From the NCBI GenBank assembly GCA_937863385.1, contig CALMBW010000019.1, forward strand, positions 124,001 through 188,000: 64,000 nucleotides of DNA, read 5' to 3'. This stretch comes from an uncultured Actinomycetes bacterium. Its GTDB lineage: Bacteria; Actinomycetota; CADDZG01; WHSQ01. Below, piece after piece: positions 2,055 through 14,372 of the stretch. The notes under the pieces are model-generated. The model searched no databases. It was not told the origin of the DNA and saw nothing but the letters and a program-made list of their open reading frames with translations. The translations under genes and the position numbers were made by a program. The number at the start of each line of letters is the position of its first letter. Position 1 is the first letter of the stretch.

Positions 2055-3236
2055 CTACAGCTTCGCTACTTGATCGAATCCGAGTTCGACCGGGGTCTCC
2101 CGGCCGAAGATGTTCACGAGGACCTTCAACTTGCTCTGATCGACGTTGATCTCGGAGATGGAGCCGGTGAAGTTCGCGAAGGGGCCCGAGGTAACCCGCA
2201 CGCTTTCATTCTCTTCGAACTCGAGTCGCGGCTTGAGCTTCTTGCGCTCCTCCGGCTTGACGCCCAGGATCCGGTCGACTTCCTTCTCTGAGAGAGGCGT
2301 CGGCTTTGCGCCGGAACCAACGAACCCCGTGACCCCCGGGGTCTCACGGACGCAGCGCCATGAGTCGTCTTCGAGGTACATGCGGACGAGGAGGTAACCG
2401 GGGAAGACCTTCTTCTGAACGATCTGCTTCTTACCGGATTTGATCTCCATGACGTCTTCCATCGGGATGACTACCTCGAACACGAGATCCTCGACATTCA
2501 TCGACTGGATCCGGGACTGAAGGTTCGTCTTGACCTTGTTCTCGTAGCCTGCATAGGTGTGGACGACGTACCAAGAGCCGGGCCGCTCGTTCGGCGGGAT
2601 GATCCGCTCGTACTCATCGTCGTATCCGGCTTCCTCCACTGCTGCAGCCGCCACGGGAACTGCTGCTACCTCAACCGCATCCGAGGCATCGTCTGCCTCT
2701 GCTTGAGCTGAGGACTCCGCTTCCTCGGGCAAGGGCTCGCCATCGGTGACGTCGGCTACTTCGGGCGCAGCGAGAACGGCCGCTTCTTCGACCGCCACGG
2801 ATGCTTCGTTGGCTTCGTCGTCCGCGTCTTCATCTTCGTCTTCGGAATCGTCCGAGGAGTCATCGGAAGTGTCTTCAGAGGTGTCATCCGAGGTGTCATC
2901 CGAAGAGTCGTCATCGGCTTCCTCGTCGTCGTCGTCTGCGTGTTCGATGTTGGGAGAAAGCTCTCCGGCGAAGGCAGGTTCGACATCGGCCTCCGCGCCG
3001 GTTTCGGCGAGGACCTGGTCCAATGCCTCTTCGTCACCCTGAGGATCGGGCGCATCCAAGGGCACTTCCTCGGTCTCGTCCTGCAACAGGCTGGCGTCCG
3101 GCGTGATGGGGCCAGGCGAATCGATACCTTCTAAGCCCTCGGCGACCTCTTCCAGTTCGCCCAGCGCTTGGGGTGAGGACACCTCCGGCGAACCGGAAGC
3201 CTCACGCTCGTCAACGTCTGATGGCCTCTCGCTCAT
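2055..3236 (-). CDS. nusG: Transcription elongation/antitermination factor NusG with long acidic N-terminal extension
   Basis: NusG binds RNA polymerase and couples it to Rho or the ribosome. I place the start at 3236: the ATG overlaps the secE stop as TGATG, giving 393 residues. The NGN domain runs from about residue 218 ([14 protein letters not shown]) to about 305, and the KOW domain covers the last 50 residues ([15 protein letters not shown]). The first ~217 residues are low-complexity and strongly acidic, with tandem D/S/T/E repeats near the middle. Extensions before the NGN domain are known in actinobacterial NusG, but this one is long. The open frame extends 44 codons further upstream, inside secE, and that part is rejected as coding. 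Confidence 0.95.
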
Positions 3237-3526
3237 CAGCCGGCTCCGAACAGGGCCACGATCGCCTTGGTGAAGGCGTAGTCCATGCCGAAGATGAGCG
3301 TGGTGATGACGATGACTGAGACCAGTACGACGATCGTGTAGGCAACGACCTCCTGGCGCGTTGGCCACGCCACCTTCTTCAACTCTGCGATGACTTCCTT
3401 GAAGAACTGGCGTGGCTTCGTGCGCTCGCGCTTGCCCGCGCCCGCTCCACCCGGCGGCTTGGGGGGCCCGGCGGCTTTGCGCTGCTGTTCCTGCTTGGCC
3501 ATCGCTCGTTTCGTCTGCCTGTTCAA
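3236..3526 (-). CDS. secE: Preprotein translocase subunit SecE
   Basis: SecE clamps the SecY channel in the cytoplasmic membrane. The protein has 96 residues. A basic, Pro/Gly/Lys-rich N-terminal region is followed by the conserved amphipathic helix [21 protein letters not shown] (about residues 40-60) and one C-terminal transmembrane helix ([22 protein letters not shown]). This single-helix architecture is the usual Gram-positive form. The stop codon overlaps the nusG start by one base, which suggests translational coupling. Confidence 0.96.
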
Positions 3527-3649: not shown

Positions 3650-3674
3650 GGGGGGTCTGCCCGCTCAACCCCCC
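3650..3674 (-). terminator. Possible hairpin terminator after the lipoprotein gene
   Basis: Seven-base G/C-rich arms 3650-3656 and 3668-3674 flank an 11-base loop that overlaps the stop codon at 3665. There is no clear T-tract on the minus strand. It would end the peptide/protease cassette before secE. Confidence 0.4.
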
Positions 3675-4441
3675 GGGGTTAGGCCCTCCAGAGGTTGGGG
3701 ACCAGGCGGCGGGCTCACCTCCACCTCGGAGTTCGGCTCGGATACGCCCAGACGCAAGGTTACGGATGCCCCAGTCAGTGTCCGGAGCTCCGCGGGGGCA
3801 TCATCGGCTAGTTCGGATCCCATCTCGGCTCGCACGACAACCGATATGGGGAAGCCGTTAGCATCCAGGCGCACCTCGATCTCGCCGTCTCTGACGATCC
3901 TTTGCAACGCCTCGAGGTCATCCTCAGATATATCGAAACCTTCACCCGCGATCTCGATCAGGTCTTGGGCGACGGCAACAGCGTTGATGTCGCCGGTGAT
4001 CGTCTCGGCGTCACCGTCCCTATCCACACGTGGCTCGTCAACCCACTCCGACAGGTCTAGATCCTCGAACCCCTCCTGCAAGGCAGCACTGGGCACTCCG
4101 ATCGATGACACCTGGTCCGCAGGAACCTGATAGGCGATGCCGTCGACCTCGATGAATGCCTGCTCCCCCGTCGAGATGAATCGCACGAAGCTCACTTGAT
4201 CGCCCAGTGAGCGCGTGATCTCCCAATCCGTCGATGGGAACCGGCCTTCAGCCAGCGAGAAGGGACCAGTGATGGCGAAGCCGACGGGGCCTTGCCCACC
4301 TGCTTCGATCTGGATAGACATGTCAAGCACACCGCTCCTGACGTCTCGTAGTCGATCGGCAGCATCGTCCAGAGACGATGCTTCATCGCCACCGCACGCG
4401 ACGAATACGGCACAACAGAGAACCGCGACGAGAGCTCTCAC
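3665..4441 (-). CDS. Predicted lipoprotein, LppX/LprG-like
   Basis: The 258-residue protein begins with a short lipoprotein signal whose lipobox ends VFVAC, with Cys16 the likely lipidated residue. The rest contains alternating strands, for example GPFSLAEGRFPSTDWEI and FISTGEQAFIEVDGIAYQV, that recall the LppX/LprA/LprF/LprG family, which forms a half-barrel holding a lipid. This assignment rests on remembered family shape, not a search. The GTG start overlaps the stop of the upstream secreted CxxC protein (GTGA), so it is probably co-translated with that protein and the M50 peptidase. An assembly or anchoring role for the cassette is inference only. Confidence 0.7.
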   Translation of the reverse strand: MRALVAVLCCAVFVACGGDEASSLDDAADRLRDVRSGVLDMSIQIEAGGQGPVGFAITGPFSLAEGRFPSTDWEITRSLGDQVSFVRFISTGEQAFIEVDGIAYQVPADQVSSIGVPSAALQEGFEDLDLSEWVDEPRVDRDGDAETITGDINAVAVAQDLIEIAGEGFDISEDDLEALQRIVRDGEIEVRLDANGFPISVVVRAEMGSELADDAPAELRTLTGASVTLRLGVSEPNSEVEVSPPPGPQPLEGLTPGG

Positions 4442-5163
4442 GAGGTGGGAGAGGCCTCCGGCATGGGAGATCCCTCGGCCGTAGTCGGCTCGGGACTCGG
4501 GGTTGGATCTGCGTCACTCGATGGCGAACCAGAAGGCTCTGGGTCGGTCGAAGGCTCGGCGCTCGGCGAGACGGAAGGACCCGGTTCCGGCTTGCCGGCA
4601 GGAACCAGTTCCTCGTCGAGGATGACGCGCACCTCATCCATCAGCGCGTCGAGGGCCACCAGGAATTCTTCGGGTTCGATATCGCCGTCTTCAAGGTCCT
4701 CCCACATCTCTGAGATCTCCTTGTAGATCTGCACCAGACGTTTCATCCCCTGACCTGTGAAGTGGATCGGGCCCTCCTCGACGCCGACCACGAACTGATA
4801 TGCGACAGCGAACGTTTCGCACAGCGAGCATTCATCGTTGATCGCGATCGCCACGTTCTCTGGAGCTACCGTTGTTACATCCCCCATGACCAGAACGATC
4901 TGGATCGCTACCGCAACGGTCGTGCAAGCCTCGCAGCTCGAGTAGGCCAGCGCGAGGTTGGTTTGGTCGACTATCCCGTCGGTCACTCGCACGATATCGA
5001 AGGCGAACTCGAAGAGGCTCGCTCCATCCTCCTCATTGACGACGATGGCTTCGTTATCGGCGATGTCCTCGAGATCTCCGATCTCTTGGGCATAAGCCGT
5101 AGTGGGGACGAGAAGGAGTAGCAGAGCTGCCCAGAGGGCTAGTGATCTATAGAACCTATTCAT
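4438..5163 (-). CDS. Secreted protein with three ~30-residue repeats, two carrying CxxC
   Basis: The 241-residue protein has a clear signal peptide (hydrophobic LALWAALLLLLVP, AYA cleavage site near residue 25). Three similar repeats follow: residues ~38-66, ~68-98 and ~103-130. Each starts N-x-A-[IL]-x-[VIY] and continues into an alternating strand such as FAVAYQFVV. Repeats two and three carry C77-x-x-C80 and C112-x-x-C115; the first lacks cysteines. A helical acidic stretch (residues ~135-180) and a Pro/Ser/Glu-rich tail end the protein. Its ATG overlaps the M50 peptidase stop (ATGA). I do not recognise a characterised family. Structural or disulfide/metal-binding roles on the cell surface are possible. 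Confidence 0.8.
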   Translation of the reverse strand: MNRFYRSLALWAALLLLLVPTTAYAQEIGDLEDIADNEAIVVNEEDGASLFEFAFDIVRVTDGIVDQTNLALAYSSCEACTTVAVAIQIVLVMGDVTTVAPENVAIAINDECSLCETFAVAYQFVVGVEEGPIHFTGQGMKRLVQIYKEISEMWEDLEDGDIEPEEFLVALDALMDEVRVILDEELVPAGKPEPGPSVSPSAEPSTDPEPSGSPSSDADPTPSPEPTTAEGSPMPEASPTS

Positions 5164-7004
5164 GGCGAGGCCTCCGGAGTTGGGGTCGGGGTGGGCTCTT
5201 CATCTGACGTGGGACTTGCAACGGGCTGCGGCTCTTCTTCCTCGGTGGTGTCGTCTCTGGATCCCGTGGTGGCGGGGTCATCGGAGCTCGACTCTTGCTC
5301 TTCGATACCGGGGGCGCCGTTCAACTCGGTCTCGCGTTGTTCGGTAAGCGACGGGCGACCGGAGGCCGAATCCGAGATGGCTTGAACCCCCTCCGTCAGA
5401 GTCCATCGTTCGCCAGGCTGGATGGGCCGATACTCGCCGTTCGGCCACAGGATGTACCCGGCGAAAGCGATGCACACCAGTGCCAAGGCGGCGAAACCGG
5501 TGCGGAGCACCGGACGCCCTTCGGTCATCCCCCAGGCCCCGGTTCCGATGCGCTTGAAGACCCGCGAGAACGTTATCGACATCCCGAGCAACGGCAGTAC
5601 CAAGAACACGATCTGCAACGCATCAACTGCCGCTTGTCCGTAATCGCCCTTCCGCCAAGCCTCCGTCAGCTTCCCAGACGACCGCTGGAAAGAGTCCCAA
5701 CCCGTTGCCAGGACACGCGGGGCGCTGAGAACCATCATCACGAACAAGAACAGCAGAAGCGGGATGACGATCACCACCCATAGGGTCACCACTACCCGCA
5801 CCCAGGTCTTCAGTTCAGAAACCGAGTCTTCAGTTTCGTGGCCGGGGATCAAGCTCCGCAGGGTCGGCTTCACTCGTGAGAAGAGGTCGGGCACTCCGGT
5901 GAGATCAGAGATGACGTAGTACCCGTCCATCCTCAAGAACGGGATGAAGTTGTAGATCATCAACATGTGCTGCATCAAGATCAGAACCAGCAAGGGTTCG
6001 AAACGAGTCAGCATGTACACGCCGGCGATGGCGATAGAGAAAAGACCGTTGAAATACACGCCACCGAGGTCGGTGCGCACACGTCCGCCTTTCCCCAAAC
6101 GATAGGTATCTGTAACGTCTGTGTAGAAGGCCGGCCATACGACATAGATCCCGAAGCCGATCACTCCCGGGCGCGCCCCCCCATATCGGCATGCCGCGGC
6201 GTGGCCGAATTCATGCCACAGGATCGACAAGATGAGCAGGACGTACACACCCAGGATCAACAGGGGGTTGTAGAGAAGATCACGCATCGATTGCCCGATG
6301 CCGTGGGAACTGAAGTACCAGATATCCACGGCGACCAAGCCCGCCACGAAGGCGAACATCACTGGGAACCAGAAGAGCGGCTTAAGAAGGATGGCGGCCG
6401 CGTTCACTCCCCTTTCTCCCAGCAGTTCCTTCTTGAGCTTCAAGGCGAGGAGAGGATCTGCCTTCTGCACATCCGGCGAGCTTCCATCCGGATGTGCCAG
6501 AACGCCCAGCGGTTGCAGATTGTTCTCAATGAGGTAGGCGACGTTGTCGGCGCTAACTTTGCGCCCGAAACCGTCGGTCACCTTTGCCGCTATCGCCTCG
6601 AGGTCGCGGCTGCCGTCGGCAGCTTCGGCCACGAGGTACAGCAGCTGACTGAGTTGGATCATCTGCCCGTCGTCACGACGGGCGATGTAGGGGTCTTGCT
6701 TGTACCCGGACCCCTCGTAGCGTCCGACGAGCTCGATCCCGGGCGCCAGCTTCGGCTTGCTAGCGCCGGACGCCGAGGGCGGGTTGCCCGCGGATGCCCT
6801 TTCGGCTACAGCGGTCGAGGCGGTTGCTCGGGGAGCCGCCCCGGGATTCGCTTCCCCATCCGTGAAGTCATCGGGGTTGCGCGTCACGGCCGCCGGTGTC
6901 ACTTGGGTCGGTGCGTGTTCACGACCGCGCGACACCCCATCCTGAGATCTGTCGATGACCTCGGCTCCGGGCTCAGATGGAGCTTTCATCACTGTGGTTG
7001 GCAC
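5160..7004 (-). CDS. M50-type membrane zinc metallopeptidase with PqqD-like N-terminal domain
   Basis: The 614-residue protein has a disordered N-terminus (1-85), a PqqD-like winged-helix region (~90-172, ending LIENNLQPLGVLA), then several transmembrane segments. The metal-binding motif is HEFGH at 264-268; the second M50-type motif is NFIPFLRMDGYY (~352-363). More membrane segments and a Ser/Thr/Pro/Glu-rich tail follow. PqqD-like domains bind leader peptides in many RiPP pathways. Lying just downstream of four small peptide genes, the protein is a strong candidate to recognise and cleave or process them; this is inference. The GTG start is preceded by AGGAG seven bases away. The gene is translationally coupled to the secreted CxxC protein. 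Confidence 0.85.
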   Translation of the reverse strand: MPTTVMKAPSEPGAEVIDRSQDGVSRGREHAPTQVTPAAVTRNPDDFTDGEANPGAAPRATASTAVAERASAGNPPSASGASKPKLAPGIELVGRYEGSGYKQDPYIARRDDGQMIQLSQLLYLVAEAADGSRDLEAIAAKVTDGFGRKVSADNVAYLIENNLQPLGVLAHPDGSSPDVQKADPLLALKLKKELLGERGVNAAAILLKPLFWFPVMFAFVAGLVAVDIWYFSSHGIGQSMRDLLYNPLLILGVYVLLILSILWHEFGHAAACRYGGARPGVIGFGIYVVWPAFYTDVTDTYRLGKGGRVRTDLGGVYFNGLFSIAIAGVYMLTRFEPLLVLILMQHMLMIYNFIPFLRMDGYYVISDLTGVPDLFSRVKPTLRSLIPGHETEDSVSELKTWVRVVVTLWVVIVIPLLLFLFVMMVLSAPRVLATGWDSFQRSSGKLTEAWRKGDYGQAAVDALQIVFLVLPLLGMSITFSRVFKRIGTGAWGMTEGRPVLRTGFAALALVCIAFAGYILWPNGEYRPIQPGERWTLTEGVQAISDSASGRPSLTEQRETELNGAPGIEEQESSSDDPATTGSRDDTTEEEEPQPVASPTSDEEPTPTPTPEASP

Positions 7005-7061
7005 CAGCTCCTGGTGGCCGTCCTTACGATCGTTGATCGGATCGTTCCTTTCCTATCCAGC

Positions 7062-7091
7062 AAAGAGGCGGCCCATGGGGGCCGCCTCTTT
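7062..7091 (-). terminator. Strong intrinsic terminator between peptide genes and peptidase
   Basis: Thirteen-base perfect arms (7062-7074 and 7079-7091) enclose a 4-base loop; on the minus strand the 3' arm ends CTCTTT. It separates the peptide genes from the M50 gene in the same orientation, so partial readthrough would yield much peptide mRNA and little peptidase mRNA. Confidence 0.85.
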
Positions 7092-7106
7092 GTCACAGCA
7101 TCTGGA

Positions 7107-7310
7107 TCAGGTGCTCTGGTCGATGTCGACGTCCTGTTCGGCGTTGGCATAGGCGACAGAGTTGTCAGACAGCACGTTCGCTGCAACTGCTGCGTTCACC
7201 GGGGCCGCCAGGTTCGCATTGATGAGCGCCATCTCTTCACGCTCGGGAAGTTCTTCGCCCGACTGTGCCTGAAGCTCTTCCTGAGTCAGTTCATCACGCT
7301 TCTCGGTCAT
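7107..7310 (-). CDS. Small peptide 1 of the tandem family (67 aa)
   Basis: This is the last of four tandem peptide genes. The ATG at 7310 follows AAGGAG eight bases upstream, so earlier in-frame codons are rejected. The N-terminal half is acidic and helical, with the shared block QSGEELPEREEM. The next segment is hydrophobic and Ala/Asn-rich (NAAVAANVLSD), then a variable stretch, ending DIDQST. No cysteine and no signal peptide are present. The leader-like N-terminus and neighbouring PqqD-domain peptidase suggest a ribosomally made, processed peptide. I do not recognise a named precursor family. A structural (fibre-forming) peptide is an alternative. Confidence 0.8.
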   Translation of the reverse strand: MTEKRDELTQEELQAQSGEELPEREEMALINANLAAPVNAAVAANVLSDNSVAYANAEQDVDIDQST

Positions 7311-7367
7311 CTCGAACTCCTTTCGAGTCGTCCATCCAATCAACACTGCTAACTGCTTCCTTGGTGC

Positions 7368-7592
7368 CTAGGCGGTGGGGTCGTCTCCACCGGTGCTTTG
7401 ATCGATCGCTGCGTCCTGGGTTGCATCGGCGTACGCAACTGCGTCGTCGGACAGAACGTTGGCTGCGACCGCTGCATTGATCGGGATCGCAACGTTCGCG
7501 TTCACAAGCGCCATCTCTTCACGCTCGGGAAGTTCTTCTCCCGACTGTGCCTGCAGCTCTTGCTCAGAAAGACCCTTGGTCTCTTCGGTCAT
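7368..7592 (-). CDS. Small peptide 2 of the tandem family (74 aa)
   Basis: It shares QSGEELPEREEM and INAAVAANVLSD with peptides 1 and 3. It differs by Val/Ile changes in the hydrophobic segment and an eight-residue C-terminal addition after IDQST (GGDDPTA region). The ATG at 7592 has AAGGAG upstream that overlaps the stop of peptide 3 (7603-7605), so translation of the two is likely linked. The longer in-frame reading into peptide 3 is not supported. Function unknown; probable substrate of the downstream peptidase by context. Confidence 0.8.
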   Translation of the reverse strand: MTEETKGLSEQELQAQSGEELPEREEMALVNANVAIPINAAVAANVLSDDAVAYADATQDAAIDQSTGGDDPTA

Positions 7593-7602
7593 GGCCTGCT
7601 CC

Positions 7603-7800
7603 TTAGGTGGACTGGTCGATGTCGCCGGTCTGCTCGGCGTTGGCAACCGCGGTTGCGTCGTCGGATAGAACGTTGGCTGCGACCGCTGCGTTCACCGGCG
7701 CTGCGAGATTCGCGTTGATCAGCGACATCTCCTCGCGCTCGGGCAGTTCTTCACCCGACTGTTGGTCTAGCTCTTGCTGCGTCAGATCCTTCTCGCTCAT
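7603..7800 (-). CDS. Small peptide 3 of the tandem family (65 aa)
   Basis: The ATG at 7800 is preceded by AAGGAGG, which decides the start over an in-frame ATG at 7830. The product starts MSEKDLTQQEL, contains the shared QSGEELPEREEM block and VNAAVAANVLSD, and ends DIDQST like peptide 1. Most differences among peptides 1-3 fall in the ten residues after VLSD, so that region may be the part under diversifying or specific selection. It lies between peptide 4 and peptide 2 on the same strand. Confidence 0.8.
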   Translation of the reverse strand: MSEKDLTQQELDQQSGEELPEREEMSLINANLAAPVNAAVAANVLSDDATAVANAEQTGDIDQST

Positions 7801-7826
7801 CCTCTGCCTCCTTCTCGCTGCTTCCC

Positions 7827-8054
7827 TCAACCGGATTTCTTCGGACCCTCTTCGCCGGAACGTTTCTTCCTCGACCGCGACGAGCGCTGCACGATGCGCT
7901 GCTTGGACGAGACGTGCGAGACGCTCCCCTTCTCTCCCACGTTGGCCGCTATCACGGCGTTTATGCCCCCCTTGATGGAGACACCGTCCTCGTCGTGATC
8001 GATCTCTTCGTTGATCACCTTTTCGACCTTCACATTCCGTAGGTGCCCCGGCAC
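7827..8054 (-). CDS. Small peptide 4, divergent basic-tailed member (up to 75 aa)
   Basis: First gene of the cassette. The N-terminal acidic block lacks the ELPEREEM sequence, but the centre reads GGINAVIAANVGEKGSV, matching NAAVAANVLSDNSV of peptides 1-3, and a Gln follows at an equivalent spacing. The C-terminus is strongly basic (RSSRSRKKRS) instead of ending QST. The start is uncertain: GTG 8054 has no good ribosome-binding site, and GTG codons at 8033 and 8018 are alternatives. It is probably a paralogue with a different role, for example nucleation, anchoring or immunity; this is inference. Confidence 0.65.
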   Translation of the reverse strand: MPGHLRNVKVEKVINEEIDHDEDGVSIKGGINAVIAANVGEKGSVSHVSSKQRIVQRSSRSRKKRSGEEGPKKSG

Positions 8055-8193: not shown

Positions 8194-9336
8194 ATGAAGC
8201 GGATCATCGTTGTGACGGCGCTCGTCGCATTTGCTCTTTCGTCCCTATCCGTCTCGGCAGCAGCCAGAAGTCTCGAAGCGCCGTCCCCGGGTGGGATTTC
8301 CTCGGACAACGTCGAGTGGGTGAAGCACATCCCGTTCTCGGCCCCCAGTGGTTCCGGTGGGCGCCTGGTGGGGCGCTACTTCTATGCGCTCGATTCGACC
8401 AAGCTGACGATCTACGACACCAAGGACCCCCTGAACCCCGTTCCGGTGGGATTCCTTGAGAACCCACACGAGCCGGTGTTCACTCGTGAGGACGTCGACA
8501 CCAACGGCCGCATCCTGCTGATGCCTAACCTGGCGCTCGCTCCCGGGCCTCTCGAGATCGTCGATGTCGAAGACAAGACCAACCCGACGATCATCGCTTC
8601 GGTCCCCAACATGAGCAACCACACGTTCACGTGCGTTCTCGATTGCAAGTATGCGTACGGTTCCGAGGGTTTCATCATCGACCTGACCGACCCCACCAAC
8701 CCGATCGTCGGGGAGAAGAAGTGGGGCGACGGCAAGGCAGGCGGAAACAACGCCCACGACGTGACCGAGGTCGCTCCGGGAATCGTCCTGACGGCTACGC
8801 CACAGATCATGCTCTTGGACGCCCGCAAGGATCCGATGAACCCCAAGCTGCTTGCCGTGGGGATGACCCCAGACCAACGCTTCCAACACACCGCCGCGTG
8901 GCCCCGCATGGGCAGGGATCGTTGGATCCTGATGGCGGGCGAAACCAACTTCAAGCCCCGCTGCTCGGACAACGGTGGCGCCTTCATGACCTTTGACTCG
9001 AAGAACTGGCAGAAGACCGGCACCTTCGAGCTCATCGACGAGTACCGGGTCAGTAACGGTACGTACGCTGACGGTTCTCCTGTCGCCAACGCACTTGGTT
9101 GCTCTTCTCACTGGCACGAGCCACGTCCTGGCTTCCGCAACGGGGGCATCGTCGCTGCCGCCTTCTTCGAGCACGGCACCCGATTCCTCGACGTCAAGCA
9201 AGACGGTTCGATCGAAGAGGCCGGCTGGTTCATCCCCCACGGCGGGTCGACCGGTGCCGTCTACTGGCGCACCAAGAACATCCTTTACGCCACGGACTAC
9301 AGCCGGGGTATCGACATCCTCCGCTTCAAAGACTGA
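8194..9336 (+). CDS. Secreted LVIVD-repeat beta-propeller protein
   Basis: The 380-residue protein has a signal peptide (hydrophobic VVTALVAFALSSLSVSA, cleavage after AAA near 24). The mature part is built of repeats of the LVIVD type, e.g. KLTIYDTKDPLNPVPVGFL, LEIVDVEDKTNPTIIASV and FIIDLTDPTNPIVGE, which form beta-propeller blades. His-rich and acidic positions (NNAHDV, FQHTAAW, SSHWHEPRPG) are spaced through the blades and could bind metal. The ATG follows CGGAGAA. It is monocistronic: a strong terminator follows 16 bases after the stop. The enzymatic or binding role is unknown. Confidence 0.8.
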   Translation: MKRIIVVTALVAFALSSLSVSAAARSLEAPSPGGISSDNVEWVKHIPFSAPSGSGGRLVGRYFYALDSTKLTIYDTKDPLNPVPVGFLENPHEPVFTREDVDTNGRILLMPNLALAPGPLEIVDVEDKTNPTIIASVPNMSNHTFTCVLDCKYAYGSEGFIIDLTDPTNPIVGEKKWGDGKAGGNNAHDVTEVAPGIVLTATPQIMLLDARKDPMNPKLLAVGMTPDQRFQHTAAWPRMGRDRWILMAGETNFKPRCSDNGGAFMTFDSKNWQKTGTFELIDEYRVSNGTYADGSPVANALGCSSHWHEPRPGFRNGGIVAAAFFEHGTRFLDVKQDGSIEEAGWFIPHGGSTGAVYWRTKNILYATDYSRGIDILRFKD

Positions 9337-9351
9337 TACATCCCAGTCCAG

Positions 9352-9386
9352 AAAAAGGCCCCCTCATACGAGGGGGCCTTTTTTTG
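9352..9386. terminator. Strong bidirectional intrinsic terminator
   Basis: A 14-bp perfect stem (9352-9365 with 9370-9383) and a 4-base loop are followed by a T-run on the plus strand and an equivalent T-run on the minus strand. It ends the LVIVD gene. Before the element inserted, it would also have ended tRNA-Trp transcription from the other side. Confidence 0.93.
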
Positions 9387-9429
9387 CAGGGCGGGAGGGA
9401 CTCGAACCCCCGACCGCTGGTTTTGGAGA
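9386..9429. repeat. Left attachment repeat (attL), tRNA-Trp 3' remnant
   Basis: Forty-four bases identical to 14299-14342. It holds the anticodon loop to the 3' end of tRNA-Trp on the minus strand without the 5' half, so it is a non-functional remnant directly next to the terminator that originally served the tRNA gene. Confidence 0.95.
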
Positions 9430-9436
9430 GCAGTAG

Positions 9437-9459
9437 GGCCCGGGTCTCTGACCTGGGCC
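9437..9459 (+). terminator. Hairpin followed by T-rich tract just inside attL
   Basis: A 10-bp stem (9437-9446 with 9450-9459, one G-T pair) is followed by TTTCTCTATTT on the plus strand. It would insulate the element from plus-strand readthrough. The remainder, 9460-9718, has no gene I can support; it includes short G/C-rich inverted repeats and may hold the element's leading promoter. Confidence 0.65.
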
Positions 9460-9718
9460 TTTCTCTATTTCCCCTGGTGGCACGGCGAAAGTAAACGGAC
9501 TCTAGTTTTCACGGTTGCCATCGAATGCCCGCAGTTAGTTGAACCTGGAGTTGGTCCTGAGGCCCGCCCCTTGTTGGGCCCCAAGGGGCTGTGTAATTTA
9601 ACAAATGTCAGTCACCCCACACCGGGGGTGCAATCACCCAGCGGCCACTCTGCCGCAGTCACAGGGGTTTGTCTAAGAACCCCATTCCCTTAGCAAGGTC
9701 ATCCCAAGAAGGAGGAGA

Positions 9719-10084
9719 TTGACTACGCCGCTATCCGCCCTAGAGGGGCGACGAATCAAAGACCGAGAACGTAAGCGGAAAGTCAGGGGCACCACCCCAG
9801 ACCGAATCCGCATAGGCCCCCCAGAGGGGCCAGAAGGTGCGGACAACCGGAAAGACCGTGAGCAGGACCTCAAGGATTCGGTCCGACCCGTAGAGGCGCT
9901 TCCAGCGCCTCACCCAACACCCCACGGCATGACACCAGTCTTGCCATCGAAGTTGATCGGTAGCGGTCGAGTCCGACATCAGTACCGAAGATCATGCGGG
10001 CGTCCAGGTTGCCCAGCACCCGAAGGGTGTTTTTGCTACAGCGACCGGCACCCGACATTCGTCCGTTTAGAGAAGGAAGGTTGA
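9719..10084 (+). CDS. Hypothetical element protein, basic N-terminus and Cys cluster
   Basis: The open frame starts at TTG 9719 right after AAGGAGG (short 3-base spacing), giving 121 residues. The first half is rich in Arg and Lys (RRIKDRERKRKVRG); the second half has a Cys cluster CGRPGCPAPEGCFC near residues 94-107 that could bind zinc. The stop lies 2 bases before the next gene's ATG, whose ribosome-binding site is inside this frame, so the two are probably co-translated. No family recognised. The TTG start is inferred only from the upstream Shine-Dalgarno sequence. Confidence 0.55.
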   Translation: MTTPLSALEGRRIKDRERKRKVRGTTPDRIRIGPPEGPEGADNRKDREQDLKDSVRPVEALPAPHPTPHGMTPVLPSKLIGSGRVRHQYRRSCGRPGCPAPEGCFCYSDRHPTFVRLEKEG

Positions 10085-10086
10085 AT

Positions 10087-10557
10087 ATGAGCCAATGGAT
10101 AGATCACGACGACGCCGACGATCCACGGTCCACCGAAGATGTCGTGGCGTCGATCCCCAGACCCGGCGACAACCCCGCCCGACACAAGACCGCCAGTGGT
10201 ACCCATCACGGTGGGGAGTGGGTTTTCGATAAGGAATCTAAGCACCTCGAAAGCTACTTCCTGGACCTAGCCAACGGAAACAGCTACCACCGGGATGACT
10301 TTGTGAAGGAGCTTCGCATCGACACAGGGGATATGCCCGCTTGGGATTCGGTCACGCTCAAGGAGTACGTGAAGGATCAGGCCGCCGAACTCAAGAAGCT
10401 TCACGACGCCGGGTGCAGCCAAGAGGCATGGGAACTGGCTAGGGAAGCTGCCGCATACGTGGCCGAGAAGGCTGGGGGCTACATCACCCCTCATGATCCG
10501 AACGAGAACTCCCCGGACGATCCACGAGAGTTGGCCAAGCTGATCAGAAGGCAGTGA
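10087..10557 (+). CDS. Hypothetical acidic element protein (156 aa)
   Basis: The ATG at 10087 follows GAAGGAAGG and gives 156 residues; a longer in-frame reading from 9994 overlaps the previous gene and is rejected. The sequence is hydrophilic and acidic, starts MSQWIDHDDADD, and has a predicted helical centre (LKEYVKDQAAELKKLHDAG, EAWELAREAAAYVAEKAG). No membrane segment, signal peptide or motif that I know is present. It lies second in the element's plus-strand gene run, before the helix-turn-helix gene. Confidence 0.65.
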   Translation: MSQWIDHDDADDPRSTEDVVASIPRPGDNPARHKTASGTHHGGEWVFDKESKHLESYFLDLANGNSYHRDDFVKELRIDTGDMPAWDSVTLKEYVKDQAAELKKLHDAGCSQEAWELAREAAAYVAEKAGGYITPHDPNENSPDDPRELAKLIRRQ

Positions 10558-10609
10558 CGGCAGTAAGGAGGGAGCTATCAACGAACCGTCTGAGAGACAG
10601 GGATTCGTC

Positions 10610-11248
10610 ATGGTCCCTTTTGTCATCCTGGACGCCCCCGGGCTCTCTCGGATGGATAGGGAGGTTTGGATGCGACTGAAACGCCATGCCGGGTCTAGGG
10701 GCGTCACCACCGTAGACCAGGAGACCCTAGCCCTAGAGATGGGGGCGGGGGTGAGAACCATCCAACGTAGCCTCCAGAAGCTACGGGACGCCGATTGGAT
10801 ATGGCAAGAACCACAAGCTTGGGCTGGGGGCCGCCCCGGCCCGGTCAAGAAACACCTCTTGGTAGATATCGTGAAAGGGAGGGTGGTTCGGCGTCCTAAC
10901 GGCCGCCAACCATGGCGGGCAGAGGGGGCTTCCCAAGGGGCAACACGGCCGCCTCTAGCGGCCCGCTTAATAGAGACCCCTTTAGGGGTCTATATAGATA
11001 AAGAGAAGAAGTTGCCGGAGTCCAAAACTCCGGCTCTAACTAAGGAGGGACCTCAAGGTCCCAACCTCTTTGAACCTGCACAGGGCAAGCCTCCCCCCGA
11101 AGAGGGGGAGATCAAAGTGGCTCCCGATTACACCCAACACGCTCCCACGCCTTGCGTGGGGTGCGGAAAGCATGGGGTGTGTAGTGCAGACGGGATCACC
11201 ATGTGGTGTTACGAGTGCCTCTCATCCGCCCAGGCCGCCCCATGTTGA
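10610..11248 (+). CDS. Helix-turn-helix protein of the element, replication-initiator-like
   Basis: 212 residues from ATG 10610. Residues ~10-70 form a winged helix-turn-helix of the kind seen in phage and plasmid replication proteins (LSRMDREVWMRLKRHAGSRG, LALEMGAGVRTIQRSLQKLRDADW). A disordered middle and a Cys-containing tail (CVGCGKHGVC, then CYEC) that could be a zinc ribbon follow. The likely real start is upstream: a perfect AAGGAGGG at 10565-10572 is followed in frame by ATC at 10577, giving INEPSERQGFVM before the annotated Met. The annotated ATG has no Shine-Dalgarno sequence. Role in replication or regulation is inferred from domain type and position. Confidence 0.65.
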   Translation: MVPFVILDAPGLSRMDREVWMRLKRHAGSRGVTTVDQETLALEMGAGVRTIQRSLQKLRDADWIWQEPQAWAGGRPGPVKKHLLVDIVKGRVVRRPNGRQPWRAEGASQGATRPPLAARLIETPLGVYIDKEKKLPESKTPALTKEGPQGPNLFEPAQGKPPPEEGEIKVAPDYTQHAPTPCVGCGKHGVCSADGITMWCYECLSSAQAAPC

Positions 11249-11868
11249 AGCCACCGATAACCGGGTGGAGGTTCTGGGGAGGGAAGGTCCAGAGGGACCA
11301 TTCGTTCAGCCAACAGAACCCCATCTTCACGGCATCTCTTTTCTTCCCCTTCCAGCATCCCGAGTTTGAAGATGGGGACAACGACGACACTGATTGCTTT
11401 GTCACGTCGGCAGAGCTACCCCCAGCCACATGCAGACGTGGGGAACACCCAGCCCCAGACGACAACTGCTCCTGTGGGTGGCGCATGGTCACAGACCTAG
11501 ATGAACTGCTTGACTATGTGGGCTACCAATCGAGCCCACTAAGTGGCTGGTTCCATCTGCGGAACTATCTCGTGATAAGCGAAGTCAGGACTGACCAAGA
11601 GGTGTGTGAGCAAGTAGTAGGTGATGACCCCCCATCGACTTTGCGTGCGGCAACGCTGGCGATCACGAAACTCTATCTAGGGCCGGGATATGCACGGTTC
11701 CCAAGAACCTTCGAGAGGCAGTTTGGGGTTCCCGTGGAAGTGCCCCAGCCGTACATCGTCACGAACGGAATCCCTGGGTACGACTTCAAACACTGGATCA
11801 GGCAGTTAAGGGAGGGGACCACTGTCCCACTGGTCCCACTAGAGACCCCCCTCCCCACCCCCCGGTAG
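11242..11868 (+). CDS. Hypothetical element protein with HPAP...CSCG motif
   Basis: The ATG at 11242 overlaps the previous gene's last seven bases and gives 208 residues. A small Cys/His motif (CRRGEHPAPDDNCSCGW, residues ~63-79) resembles a motif I have seen in many actinobacterial and actinophage hypothetical proteins; the function is unknown. The C-terminal half has aromatic and proline-rich segments (GYARFPRTFERQFGVPVEVP). Earlier in-frame codons from 11203 lie inside the upstream gene and are rejected. Confidence 0.6.
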   Translation: MLKPPITGWRFWGGKVQRDHSFSQQNPIFTASLFFPFQHPEFEDGDNDDTDCFVTSAELPPATCRRGEHPAPDDNCSCGWRMVTDLDELLDYVGYQSSPLSGWFHLRNYLVISEVRTDQEVCEQVVGDDPPSTLRAATLAITKLYLGPGYARFPRTFERQFGVPVEVPQPYIVTNGIPGYDFKHWIRQLREGTTVPLVPLETPLPTPR

Positions 11869-11892
11869 GGGTGGGTTGGGTCTAAAGGAAAG

Positions 11893-12021
11893 ATGAAGAA
11901 CCATGTGTCTCTCGGATCAGGTCAGGGGCTAACCGTTTGGGAGGGTGGTTTCGGTTGCCCCTTCGCAGGTCTTAGTAGGAGCCCTTCGACAAAGGGGCCT
12001 CAATACAAAGGTGATCTGTGA
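11893..12021 (+). CDS. Possible 42-residue peptide in the element
   Basis: ATG 11893 follows AAAGGAAAG and runs 42 codons; its TGA overlaps a GTG (GTGA at 12018) that opens a frame continuing into the terminase-like gene. The Gly/Ser-rich product has no recognisable motif. Apart from this, the 374-base gap 11869-12242 holds short inverted repeats such as GGGTGACTTCACCC and a G-tract ending in GGGGGTACCCCC, which could be operator or origin sequence. Low confidence as a gene. Confidence 0.3.
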   Translation: MKNHVSLGSGQGLTVWEGGFGCPFAGLSRSPSTKGPQYKGDL

Positions 12022-12242
12022 AAACAAGCGTTAGAACTTCCGATCCCGGTTTGTTTCCCTCCTTCTCCCGGGTGCTCGGAAGCAGGGTGACTTCACCCAA
12101 GGTGGTGGGTCACCTCAGAGGGAAGGGGGTGGGGGGGTACCCCCTCCCCTTCTCCACCTCACTACCCGGTGGTATAGCGGCGCACCATGCCTGCCGGTAT
12201 GACCTCCGGGTTTACAAAATCATCAATGCAGAAAGGACACCT

Positions 12243-12614
12243 ATGGCTTCAAAGAATCCCTCGCCCCCTGTGGGGCTCGGAAAGGATGGTCGAGCCTTTT
12301 GGAGAGAGGTAGTCAAGGGATGGGACTGCAATCCCGACACCCTCCGACTACTGGAACGAGCCGCCCGAGTTCTCGACACGTTGGCAGTCCTCGATCAGGA
12401 ACTCGAATCAGCGGAGTTGATCCTGGAGGGCTCCCGTGGGCAGCCCATCGCTAATCCACTCATGACCGAACGTCGGTTACACAGTCAGGTGTTCGCCCAG
12501 CTAGTCCGCCAGCTTCGTCTTGAGGAAGCAGAAGCCGGTGGCTGGGAGGGCTTATCCATCTCAGAGCGAGGCCGCAAAGCGGCCCTGCAAAGATGGAGGA
12601 AATCCCCGCAGTAA
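12243..12614 (+). CDS. Terminase small subunit-like protein
   Basis: The ATG at 12243 has AAAGGA upstream and gives 123 residues. The start PPVGLGKDGRAFWREVVKGWDCNPDTLRLLERAARVLD, a central helix pair, the HPxV-like segment GQPIANPLMTERR and the final ISERGRKAALQRWRK match the pattern of P27-type and actinophage small terminase proteins, which bind pac/cos DNA and recruit the large subunit. No large subunit is present in the element. Satellites of Gram-positive phages commonly carry only a small terminase to redirect packaging. Family assignment is by pattern and not by search. An in-frame GTG at 12018 would add 75 residues of poor quality. Confidence 0.65.
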   Translation: MASKNPSPPVGLGKDGRAFWREVVKGWDCNPDTLRLLERAARVLDTLAVLDQELESAELILEGSRGQPIANPLMTERRLHSQVFAQLVRQLRLEEAEAGGWEGLSISERGRKAALQRWRKSPQ

Positions 12615-12621
12615 ACGGTAG

Positions 12622-12651
12622 TTGACTCCTCGCTTTCGCTCCTGTTATGTG
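12622..12651 (+). promoter_or_regulatory. Candidate promoter for the 12705-14283 gene run
   Basis: TTGACT at 12622-12627 is followed after 18 bases by TATGTG at 12646-12651, in the gap between the terminase-like gene and the next small gene. It may drive the small protein, excisionase and integrase genes separately. Confidence 0.4.
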
Positions 12652-12704
12652 GTCTCTGATTACAGAGCCTTACCGGAAGGCTCGCAGAGGCGAGGAGGTT
12701 GTTC

Positions 12705-12908
12705 ATGCTTGATCCTGTAGCGCCGGAGGTGCCGTGGGGAGTCACCAATTGCCCCGACTGCGATCATTGGACGGCAGAGATACACAAGCCCGTCCTGCAT
12801 GGTGACGAAATCGACCCGGACGCTGGCGATAACGCTCTGTACTACGTGGCCGAGTGTGTCTGTGGCTTCAGCACGGTACAGACGGTTGAGCTTGTTTCGG
12901 GAGCGTGA
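12705..12908 (+). CDS. Small Cys-containing element protein (67 aa)
   Basis: The ATG at 12705 follows GAGGAGG with good spacing. The product contains CPDCDHW near the N-terminus and ECVCGF near the C-terminus, a C-x-x-C ... C-x-C arrangement that suggests a small zinc ribbon. The stop overlaps the GTG of the next gene, so the excisionase-like protein is probably translated in coupling with it. Function unknown. Confidence 0.6.
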   Translation: MLDPVAPEVPWGVTNCPDCDHWTAEIHKPVLHGDEIDPDAGDNALYYVAECVCGFSTVQTVELVSGA

Positions 12909-13108
12909 AGCTCTACGGCATCGCTGAGATAGCGGAGCGGTTAGGCGAACGCCGAGAGACTGTTGCCCAGTGGTACTACCGCAGCCGAACGAACTCACCC
13001 GGTGGCATGGACCTGCCAAAGCCCGACTCCATTCTCAAGATGGGTCCGGTGTGGACGGGAGAAACATTGGGTCCATGGATTCGGAAGATGAGGAGGCGAT
13101 CTATCTGA
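12905..13108 (+). CDS. xis: Excisionase-like DNA-binding protein
   Basis: GTG 12905 overlaps the previous stop (GTGA) and gives 67 residues. The N-terminus LYGIAEIAERLGERRETVAQWYYR is a MerR/AlpA-type helix-turn-helix, and the basic end has WIRKMRRR. Size, fold and position directly before the integrase match excisionases, which bend attachment-site DNA and steer recombination to excision. Its 3' end overlaps the start of the integrase gene by 34 bases. Confidence 0.7.
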   Translation: MKLYGIAEIAERLGERRETVAQWYYRSRTNSPGGMDLPKPDSILKMGPVWTGETLGPWIRKMRRRSI

Positions 13109-14283
13109 AACCTCGAAAAAAAGTAGCGAAGGATGGAACCGTTTCCTGGCTAGCCCGTTGGTATGACCCGCAGGCAAGCAACCCTGTCAGGAAGGTGGTC
13201 CGGTCGAAGTCGTTCAGGACCAAGAGGGACGCTGAGGCATACCAGGCCAGGATGGTGCTGAGGATTCGACAGGGCACCTATGTTGATCCAACCCTCGGCA
13301 AGGTGACCCTTGCCCAGTGGTGGGAAAGGTTCCTGGAAACATCGTCCGTGAACCTGAAACCATCGACCCGAGAGACCTACTCGGCCCGGATGAAGGTTCA
13401 CGTTCTCGGCCCATTAGGCCGTCGCCCATTGGCGACACTCACACGGCTTGATATCGAAACGTGGATAGGGAACCTCACTCGGGAAGGGGTCAAGCCCGCC
13501 AACATCAAAGCCGCTCACAGTGTGTTGCGAAGGGTCCTTCAATCTGCCAAAGACGTAGGGGTTATCGGGACCAACCCAGCAACCGGCGTAGCCACGCCCA
13601 GGGTGCCTCGGGAGGAAATGCGAATCCTTAGCCCCGCAGAGGTTGAAGCCATCGCAAACGAGGTGGCTCCTCGGTATAGGGCTCTGGTCCTCTTACTGGC
13701 CTACGGGGGCCTACGGATCGGAGAAGCAACCGCCCTGCGGGTTGCATCCATGGACCTGCTTAGGGGCCGGGTGAATGTAGCTGAGGCCTTCTCGGAAGTG
13801 GGAGGCCGGTTAGTCCTGGGCTCCACCAAGACGGCTGGGAGCCGCCGAGTGGTAACGCTTCCATCGTCAATAACCCACGCCTTAAGAGAACATCTGGACA
13901 GGTTCCCTCCGGGACCAGACGGTTTGGTTTTCACGGGCGCAAAAGGTGGTGCGGTCCGTAGGACCGCCTTCTACCACCGGGTATGGATACCCGCCCTTAG
14001 GCGGGCCAACATCCAGGGACATGTTCGGGTGCATGACCTACGCCACACGGCGGTCTCCTTAGCGATCATGGTTGGAGCACACCCGAAAGAGATACAGGCT
14101 CGGGCTGGCCACTCATCTATCACCGTGACCATGGACCGCTACGGCCACCTTTTCCCCGGTCAGGATGAAGCTCTAGCCGCCAGGCTAGACGCCCTGATAG
14201 TGGCTCCTACGGACGATGGTTGGTCCACAGTTGGCCTAGGTGAATCGGGCAAGGTCGTAGGCCTCTACGACAAAAGGCCCTGA
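13075..14283 (+). CDS. int: Tyrosine site-specific integrase
   Basis: 402 residues from ATG 13075. The N-terminal arm-binding domain and SAM-like core-binding domain (TLAQWWERFLETSS ... STRETYSARMKVHV) precede the catalytic domain. Catalytic residues are visible: Arg214 (GGLRIGEA), Lys252 (STKTAGSRR), His320 and Arg323 (HDLRHTAVSL), His346 (AGHSSI) and Tyr356 (MDRYGHLF). The set is complete, so the enzyme is probably active. The gene ends 15 bases from attR and targets tRNA-Trp. The start could also be within the preceding overlap; M13075 lacks a close ribosome-binding site. Confidence 0.93.
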   Translation: MDSEDEEAIYLKPRKKVAKDGTVSWLARWYDPQASNPVRKVVRSKSFRTKRDAEAYQARMVLRIRQGTYVDPTLGKVTLAQWWERFLETSSVNLKPSTRETYSARMKVHVLGPLGRRPLATLTRLDIETWIGNLTREGVKPANIKAAHSVLRRVLQSAKDVGVIGTNPATGVATPRVPREEMRILSPAEVEAIANEVAPRYRALVLLLAYGGLRIGEATALRVASMDLLRGRVNVAEAFSEVGGRLVLGSTKTAGSRRVVTLPSSITHALREHLDRFPPGPDGLVFTGAKGGAVRRTAFYHRVWIPALRRANIQGHVRVHDLRHTAVSLAIMVGAHPKEIQARAGHSSITVTMDRYGHLFPGQDEALAARLDALIVAPTDDGWSTVGLGESGKVVGLYDKRP

Positions 14284-14298
14284 CCTGCACTTTCAGTA

Positions 14299-14342
14299 GC
14301 AGGGCGGGAGGGACTCGAACCCCCGACCGCTGGTTTTGGAGA
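14299..14342. repeat. Right attachment repeat (attR) within tRNA-Trp
   Basis: Identical to 9386-9429. It begins one base 5' of the anticodon loop (minus strand) and ends one base beyond the tRNA 3' end, so insertion leaves the tRNA sequence intact. Confidence 0.95.
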
Positions 14343-14372
14343 CCAGTGCTCTACCAACTGAGCTACCGCCCT
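14300..14372 (-). tRNA. trpT: tRNA-Trp (CCA anticodon)
   Basis: The 73-base cloverleaf folds fully: acceptor AGGGCGG pairs with CCGCCCT, D arm GCTC...GAGC, anticodon stem CTGGT/ACCAG around loop CTCCAAA (anticodon CCA at 14337-14339), and the TTCGAGT T-loop. The CCA tail is not encoded. The 3' half lies within attR and is now followed by element DNA and not by its former terminator at 9352. Confidence 0.96.

Follow-up and report, generated by a model that had tools for sequence, protein, structure and literature searches.

RRE domains are known as guides for modifying enzymes and for RiPP leader peptidases. In daptide biosynthesis the protease MpaP removes the leader with the help of its own RRE, and several precursors per cluster together with an RRE are regarded as hallmarks of RiPP systems (PMC10036551). 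EpeP is sufficient for the production of epipeptide and is thought to both cut and export it, while TglG and TmoG cut the precursors of pearlins (PMC10885120). Here we describe an actinobacterial cassette in which an RRE-bearing protease seems to be the sole linked processing enzyme, an arrangement that extends to hundreds of actinobacterial genomes, including those of common soil genera and environmental mycobacteria. Its peptides, CxxC domain and lipoprotein lie outside every curated family, the gene set was previously unnamed, and within the open-access literature no paper was found on the system or on any of these parts. We consider it rather probable that the cassette processes small, unmodified, beta-prone peptides within the membrane, guided by their leaders, and the most secure part of this reading is that precursor, RRE-protease and CxxC domain work as a single unit.

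Organization of the cassette and its protease

All genes of the cassette are encoded on the minus strand of the window (the whole 64,000-nucleotide stretch of DNA analysed here), running from position 8054 to 3665, the same extent as in the initial annotation (Table 1). The genes for the protease, the CxxC protein and the lipoprotein overlap by 4 bases each (5160-5163 and 4438-4441), which bears out the earlier description of three genes on a single strand joined by stop-start overlaps. A terminator had also been proposed after the peptide genes. The hairpin at this position is strong (-35.6 kcal/mol, z -5.2), and relatives when folded have a strong hairpin of differing sequence in the same place, but it lacks a proper U-tract and is not called by a simple terminator scan. 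It may instead be an attenuator or mRNA-end stabiliser, through which more peptide than protease is made.

Table 1. Features of the cassette, with positions in the window
Feature	Position	Strand	Description
pep0	7827-8054	minus	75 aa, leaderless, first in row, basic C-terminus, motif NAVIAANV...SSKQRIVQ
pep1	7603-7797	minus	65-aa precursor, alpha type, leader ELPEREEM and core INANLAAPVNAAVAANVLSDDATAVANAEQTGDIDQST
pep2	7368-7592	minus	74-aa precursor, beta type (ANVAIPINAAVAANVLSDDAVAYADATQ)
pep3	7107-7310	minus	67-aa precursor, alpha type
Hairpin, 14 bp	7061-7092	minus	between peptide genes and protease gene
Protease	5160-7004	minus	M50 site-2-type intramembrane metalloprotease (predicted), N-terminal PqqD/RRE domain
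PqqD/RRE-like domain	6480-6743	minus	residues 88-175, presumed leader-binding site, conserved in homologue alignment
HEFGH zinc motif	6201-6215	minus	residues 264-268; presumed third ligand D360 in RMDGY
Secreted CxxC protein	4438-5163	minus	Sec-type signal peptide, three beta-hairpins, two helices, Pro/Ser tail
First CxxC motif	4924-4935	minus	residues 77-80
Second CxxC motif	4819-4830	minus	residues 112-115
Lipoprotein	3665-4441	minus	lipobox VFVAC

The cassette is flanked by secE, nusG, rplK and rplA, and by an LVIVD-like gene. The divergent gene adjoining it (8194-9336) encodes a secreted protein (about 380 aa) that weakly matches LVIVD repeats, and a NusG-like ORF at 2055-3368 has an unusually long acidic N-terminal extension with runs of D, E and S, its true start codon being uncertain. 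Also nearby is an integrative element of 4.9 kb (9386-14347), bounded by 49-bp direct repeats (9386-9434 and 14299-14347; 98%) that match the 3' end of tRNA-Trp (14299-14372, minus strand), with an ORF resembling a tyrosine-type integrase (12970-14283). The cassette is not cargo of this element, as the 49-bp att repeats exclude it and place it between the element and secE.

The closest curated model of the protease is NF041824 (daptide_HExxH, daptide intramembrane metalloprotease), which matches from residue 103 with E 2.4e-31 and 109 bits against a cut-off of 300, while NF058609 (LiaK/YydH) gives E 8e-16 and 58 bits against a cut-off of 225. Single members of the family reach at best 0.0022 with PF02163, and match PF05402 weakly. 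The residues H264, E265, H268 and D360, within HExGH and RxDGY motifs, are invariant in 9/9 homologues, the first motif being the HEFGH already noted in the peptidase. By these zinc-ligand motifs the protein is an M50 protease of the site-2 type, with predicted proteolytic activity. Hydropathy predicts about seven transmembrane helices followed by an extracytoplasmic Pro/Thr/Ser-rich tail; given an RRE inside the cell, seven helices would put the C-terminal tail outside.

An AlphaFold2 model was obtained for a homologue in which protease and CxxC domain are fused (L059; 63-row alignment, mean pLDDT 83). Its residues 34-114 have a beta-beta-beta-alpha-alpha-alpha order, which is the PqqD/RRE topology, at pLDDT above 90, and a multi-helix membrane core follows. 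The initial annotation had likened the N-terminal region to PqqD and made its fold a test of the proposal; the beta3-alpha3 arrangement of the model, the weak PF05402 matches and the NF041824 match all agree with it. A Foldseek search with the whole fused model returned no match at E 0.001 or better and no PqqD structure among its top 50, the most plausible match being a weak one to the site-2 protease SpoIVFB (E 0.3, prob 0.75). Searching the sequences of solved structures with the protease and CxxC profiles returned nothing useful.

Distribution of the gene set

When 84,980 species genomes were scanned with a profile of the protease, at least 407 related stretches emerged, of which the best 80 loci were examined. 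The records of these 80 are mostly named Actinomycetota, and several are MAGs labelled Chloroflexi. Within these best 80 of at least 407 loci, which were found by the protease alone, the peptide family lies beside the protease in 76 and the CxxC domain is adjacent or fused to it in 77. In three of the loci without adjacent peptides (L029, L039 and L044) the contig breaks off beside the protease, and the other (L015) has only a pep0-like peptide there. The genome of this last locus (G020) has its protease on one contig (C2) and three leader-bearing peptides with a CxxC gene on another (C4), so that the parts are retained there although unlinked.

The association was also examined at the level of genomes, in 397 members of the window's phylum with cut-offs of E < 1e-6 for the peptides and E < 1e-100 for the protease. 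The peptide family is found in 26 of them, the protease in 29 and the CxxC domain in 21. Peptide and protease occur together in 24 genomes (Fisher P 2e-31), CxxC domain and protease in 19 (P 3e-23), and CxxC domain and peptide in 20 (P 2e-27), all values being uncorrected for relatedness. Two genomes have peptides without a full protease: in one they lie at a contig end (G028), and in the other beside a protease fragment (G337). Peptides and protease without a CxxC domain are found in G139, G174, G215 and G239, and in G018, where an assembly gap is possible; the four former genomes indicate that the CxxC domain is not strictly required. Recurrence in 76-77 of the best 80 loci and the Fisher P of 2e-31 put the gene set beyond chance. 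Co-occurrence of the peptides with the protease in other genomes had been set beforehand as a test of the proposed pathway, and it is observed here, as is the suggested link between the secreted CxxC protein and the peptidase, which in many genera is a fusion. The cassette is one instance of a widespread actinobacterial system.

The system takes several forms. The short type, to which the window belongs together with MAGs of Thermoleophilia, Acidimicrobiia and Frankiaceae, has two to four peptides of 65-80 aa, and in seven such loci (L016, L017, L019, L020, L024, L027 and L034) a homologue of the lipoprotein lies 3' of the CxxC gene. In the long type, found in Arthrobacter, Mycobacterium, Nocardioides and Kribbella, a single precursor of 200-330 aa contains the leader and two copies of the core with a variable linker, and its gene lies directly 5' of that for a fused RRE-M50-CxxC protein. 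The Streptomyces type has two peptides with ELLPGREAL leaders. Neighbour clustering over the best 80 of at least 407 loci revealed no conserved maturase or transporter near the cassette; it used mechanical ORFs, from which small or poorly conserved genes could escape.

Leaders, cores and the CxxC hairpin domain

The genes pep1 to pep3 are tandem paralogues, present as three 213-nt copies with DNA identity of 71-75%, and their leader, marked by ELPEREEM, is acidic, with a net charge of -7 over the first 28 residues. Four peptides had been described as sharing this leader, which is true of pep1 to pep3 but not of pep0, a different and leaderless peptide that has only the motif NAxxAANV...Q in common with them. 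Homologues of pep0 are present in L015, L016, L017, L021, L023 and L026 (E 4e-8 to 6e-11) and, more weakly, in L028 and L033, where they lead the peptide cluster or lie directly 5' of the protease gene. One pep0-like peptide (L016, 302-697) has a reversed order, with a core-like N-terminal part and a leader-like motif (LQEEEARELPHRE) at the C-terminal end.

In a set of 60 short peptides, leaders from one locus (compared between types) share 78% identity and those from separate loci 58%, and core type is without effect on the leader (308 of 500 permutations being equally good). Cores do carry a type signal: with the type-defining columns removed, those of one type still resemble each other across loci more closely than they resemble the other types (0/500 permutations). 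Between loci, cores are about 70% identical. The beta type of core, that of pep2, is conserved across loci, and a full set of alpha, beta and gamma is present in 11/22 loci, contig ends cutting several of the rest. The pattern fits a leader that is tuned to the recogniser of its own locus and three core roles that have been kept over long times; the likeness of leaders within a locus may come partly from gene conversion or recent duplication rather than from co-evolution with the RRE.

Unrelated cores accompany the leader motif and protease family in L006, L007, L018 and L100, and genomes that have the protease but not this peptide family include G012 and G021, where the same leader motif stands ahead of quite different cores. 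The protease family is thus broader than the core family, the leader being the common part. The earlier proposal that the peptidase recognises the shared leader gains indirect support from two observations, namely that leaders are locus-specific where cores are not and that one leader motif occurs with different cores; the binding itself we infer. Several variants were seen. In L018 (3468-3758), a cluster that also holds normal peptides, one peptide has the same leader followed by a Pro-rich core (MTTLHPPIQPLPPVPGEDYLFPTDP) of unrelated sequence. In L007 (979-2856) a related RRE-M50 protease has a C-terminal DUF3105 (E 2.8e-39) where the CxxC domain would be, and the peptide next to it shares the leader motif but has another core. 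Variant precursors in L096 and L098 have a normal core and then long N/Q/F/D-rich tails (EQNNFIEQNNEQNNFEDRDED), which suggests extended repeat formation.

The peptides are net negative and contain an Ala-rich, weakly hydrophobic segment (LINANLAAPVNAAVAANVL). The AlphaFold model of a long precursor is poor (pLDDT 54), with a leader helix and then tentative strands, and it was too uncertain for a fold search, so no fold match comes from it; because of this low confidence, "beta-prone" is a tentative label for the cores. In neither the window nor relatives does a Pfam or NCBIfam model meaningfully match the peptides or the CxxC protein. The same holds for the lipoprotein, which has no PDB match either, and its assignment to the LprG/LppX type finds no support in Pfam or the PDB.

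The four cysteines of the CxxC domain are invariant in 18/18 sequences. In the model of the fused homologue, residues 555-701 form three consecutive beta-hairpins and then two helices, and by alignment hairpins 2 and 3 carry the CxxC motifs in their turns. A thioredoxin-like assignment was rejected, as only 3 of 63 alignment members have a weak Thioredoxin_3 match (best 0.037) and the model consists of hairpins, not a thioredoxin fold. The domain is fused to the C-terminus of the protease in Arthrobacter, Mycobacterium, Nocardioides, Kribbella and others, and an outer location for it is consistent with the approximately seven transmembrane helices of the protease and the Sec signal of the stand-alone form. 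When the CxxC hairpin is aligned with the peptide core, hhalign scores 24.7, compared with 10.1 +/- 2.1 for column shuffles (maximum 21.1, 0/150) and 13.8 for the reversed profile, and the alignment pairs P.N.A.A.N......A.A.Q at the same spacing in both. The similarity is suggestive of homology between hairpin and core but, taken absolutely, weak (HHalign probability 28%), and convergence of small-residue hairpins may also account for it.

These elements can be assembled into a possible mechanism. The ribosome would make the three short precursors in excess, with the hairpin after pep3 perhaps limiting downstream expression. In the cytosol the PqqD/RRE domain would bind the acidic leader (LTxEELxAQ..EELPxREEM), as fold and sequence pattern suggest. 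The Ala-rich segment may then enter the membrane active site of the M50 protease and the leader be cut off, as MpaP, EpeP and TglG-type enzymes would lead one to expect; the cut is predicted near the start of this segment, by analogy with M50 enzymes that free RiPP products. As no transporter gene is conserved nearby, the core (N..S..S.A.A.A.Q...I.Q) would have to exit the cell through the protease or by some general route. That the CxxC domain can be fused at the outer end and resembles the core suggests a role for it in receiving or seeding the cores once released; secreted or protease-fused, it might receive, nucleate or covalently hold them through its core-like beta-hairpins, with the lipoprotein as a conceivable membrane partner and a surface peptide material as the speculative outcome. 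With neither maturase nor exporter conserved nearby, an unmodified peptide is the simplest reading, and a modifying enzyme could still be encoded unlinked to the cassette.

A bolder version, which we offer tentatively as a possibility, is that one polypeptide both matures and nucleates a polymer: unmodified beta-hairpin subunits, recognised by the RRE and freed by the protease, would assemble on a CxxC domain that is built of the same hairpin and is often part of the protease. If true, this would be a new route to extracellular peptide material in actinobacteria, built from three subunits or from one long precursor with two cores.

Alternative readings and known systems

The cassette has a precursor with leader and core and an RRE/PqqD domain in its processing enzyme, as RiPP pathways do, and has no linked modifying enzyme. 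It could be a true RiPP system, daptide-like or other, with cores modified by enzymes encoded elsewhere and a protease that frees a peptide with bioactivity, perhaps on membranes. The daptide leader peptidase is indeed the closest curated model, several precursors accompany an RRE (hallmarks according to PMC10036551), and pep1 and pep3 end in T as daptide precursors do. However, pep2 ends in A and homologues in N, T, I or A, precursors of 200-330 aa with two cores are unlike small RiPPs, and no oxidative decarboxylase, aminotransferase, methyltransferase, YcaO, radical SAM or lanthipeptide enzyme lies near the window genes or is conserved in the best 80 of at least 407 loci, the last three having been noted as absent in the initial annotation too. 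This reading is unlikely, and for a daptide system proper we reject it, as the cassette has neither the three modifying enzymes nor a C-terminal Thr that is invariant.

Peptide signalling, in which intramembrane cleavage would free a pheromone and the CxxC protein and lipoprotein would be the receptor or sensor side, appears quite improbable. M50 proteases take part in regulated intramembrane proteolysis, and core types are conserved across lineages. Yet neither a regulator nor a sensor kinase is broadly conserved beside the cassette in the best 80 of at least 407 loci, and three precursor types plus long two-core precursors suit a structural material better than a single pheromone. We think it very unlikely that the cassette serves conflict, its peptides being membrane-active bacteriocins with immunity provided by pep0 or the lipoprotein: the semi-hydrophobic Ala-rich segment, a pep0 that is leaderless and basic, and the frequent role of lipoproteins as immunity proteins would agree with this, but the net charge of the peptides is negative and the cores, about 70% identical between loci, show high conservation where bacteriocins usually diversify. 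PADLOC and PHROGs give no match, which also argues against a defence or phage origin. That the protease merely degrades small peptides, for example in membrane quality control with no exported product, is hardly probable at all, for although no dedicated exporter is conserved in the best 80 of at least 407 loci, a core-like secreted hairpin domain, fused or co-encoded, makes a function outside likelier and the conservation pattern of leader and core is that of a processed product.

If our reading of a leader-guided processing system for unmodified peptides is true, this mode of processing is used outside modified natural products, and it could define an actinobacterial surface material. The chaplins and rodlins of Streptomyces, also actinobacterial surface peptides, are functional analogues only; they are Sec-exported, and their sequences are not known to resemble those of the cassette peptides. 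The curli proteins CsgA and CsgB, too, are functional analogues only, in that small secreted subunits have N/S/A/Q-spaced repeats and are accompanied by a related nucleator protein; in contrast, the cassette has a leader that is not of Sec type, no CsgG-type pore and actinobacterial hosts, none of its peptides matches the curlin repeat PF07012 in Pfam, and no linked transporter is conserved in the best 80 of at least 407 loci. The pearlin proteases TglG and TmoG are likewise membrane M50 enzymes acting on a RiPP precursor, but they cleave a modified C-terminal residue from its scaffold, whereas the window protease would remove an N-terminal leader. EpeP/YydH/LiaK (NF058609) is similarly an M50 protease, to which the cutting and perhaps the export of a small peptide are ascribed, and from its system the cassette differs in lacking the radical SAM epimerase and in scoring 58 bits against the cut-off of 225. 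Closest is the daptide protease MpaP/DapP (NF041824), with which the system has in common a PqqD/RRE domain fused to an M50 protease, several leader-bearing precursors per cluster and an origin in Actinomycetota. The window protease is homologous to it but outside its family (109 bits against 300), and the daptide oxidative decarboxylase, aminotransferase and methyltransferase neither flank the cassette nor are conserved in the best 80 of at least 407 loci; to the shared plan the cassette adds a CxxC hairpin domain and a lipoprotein.
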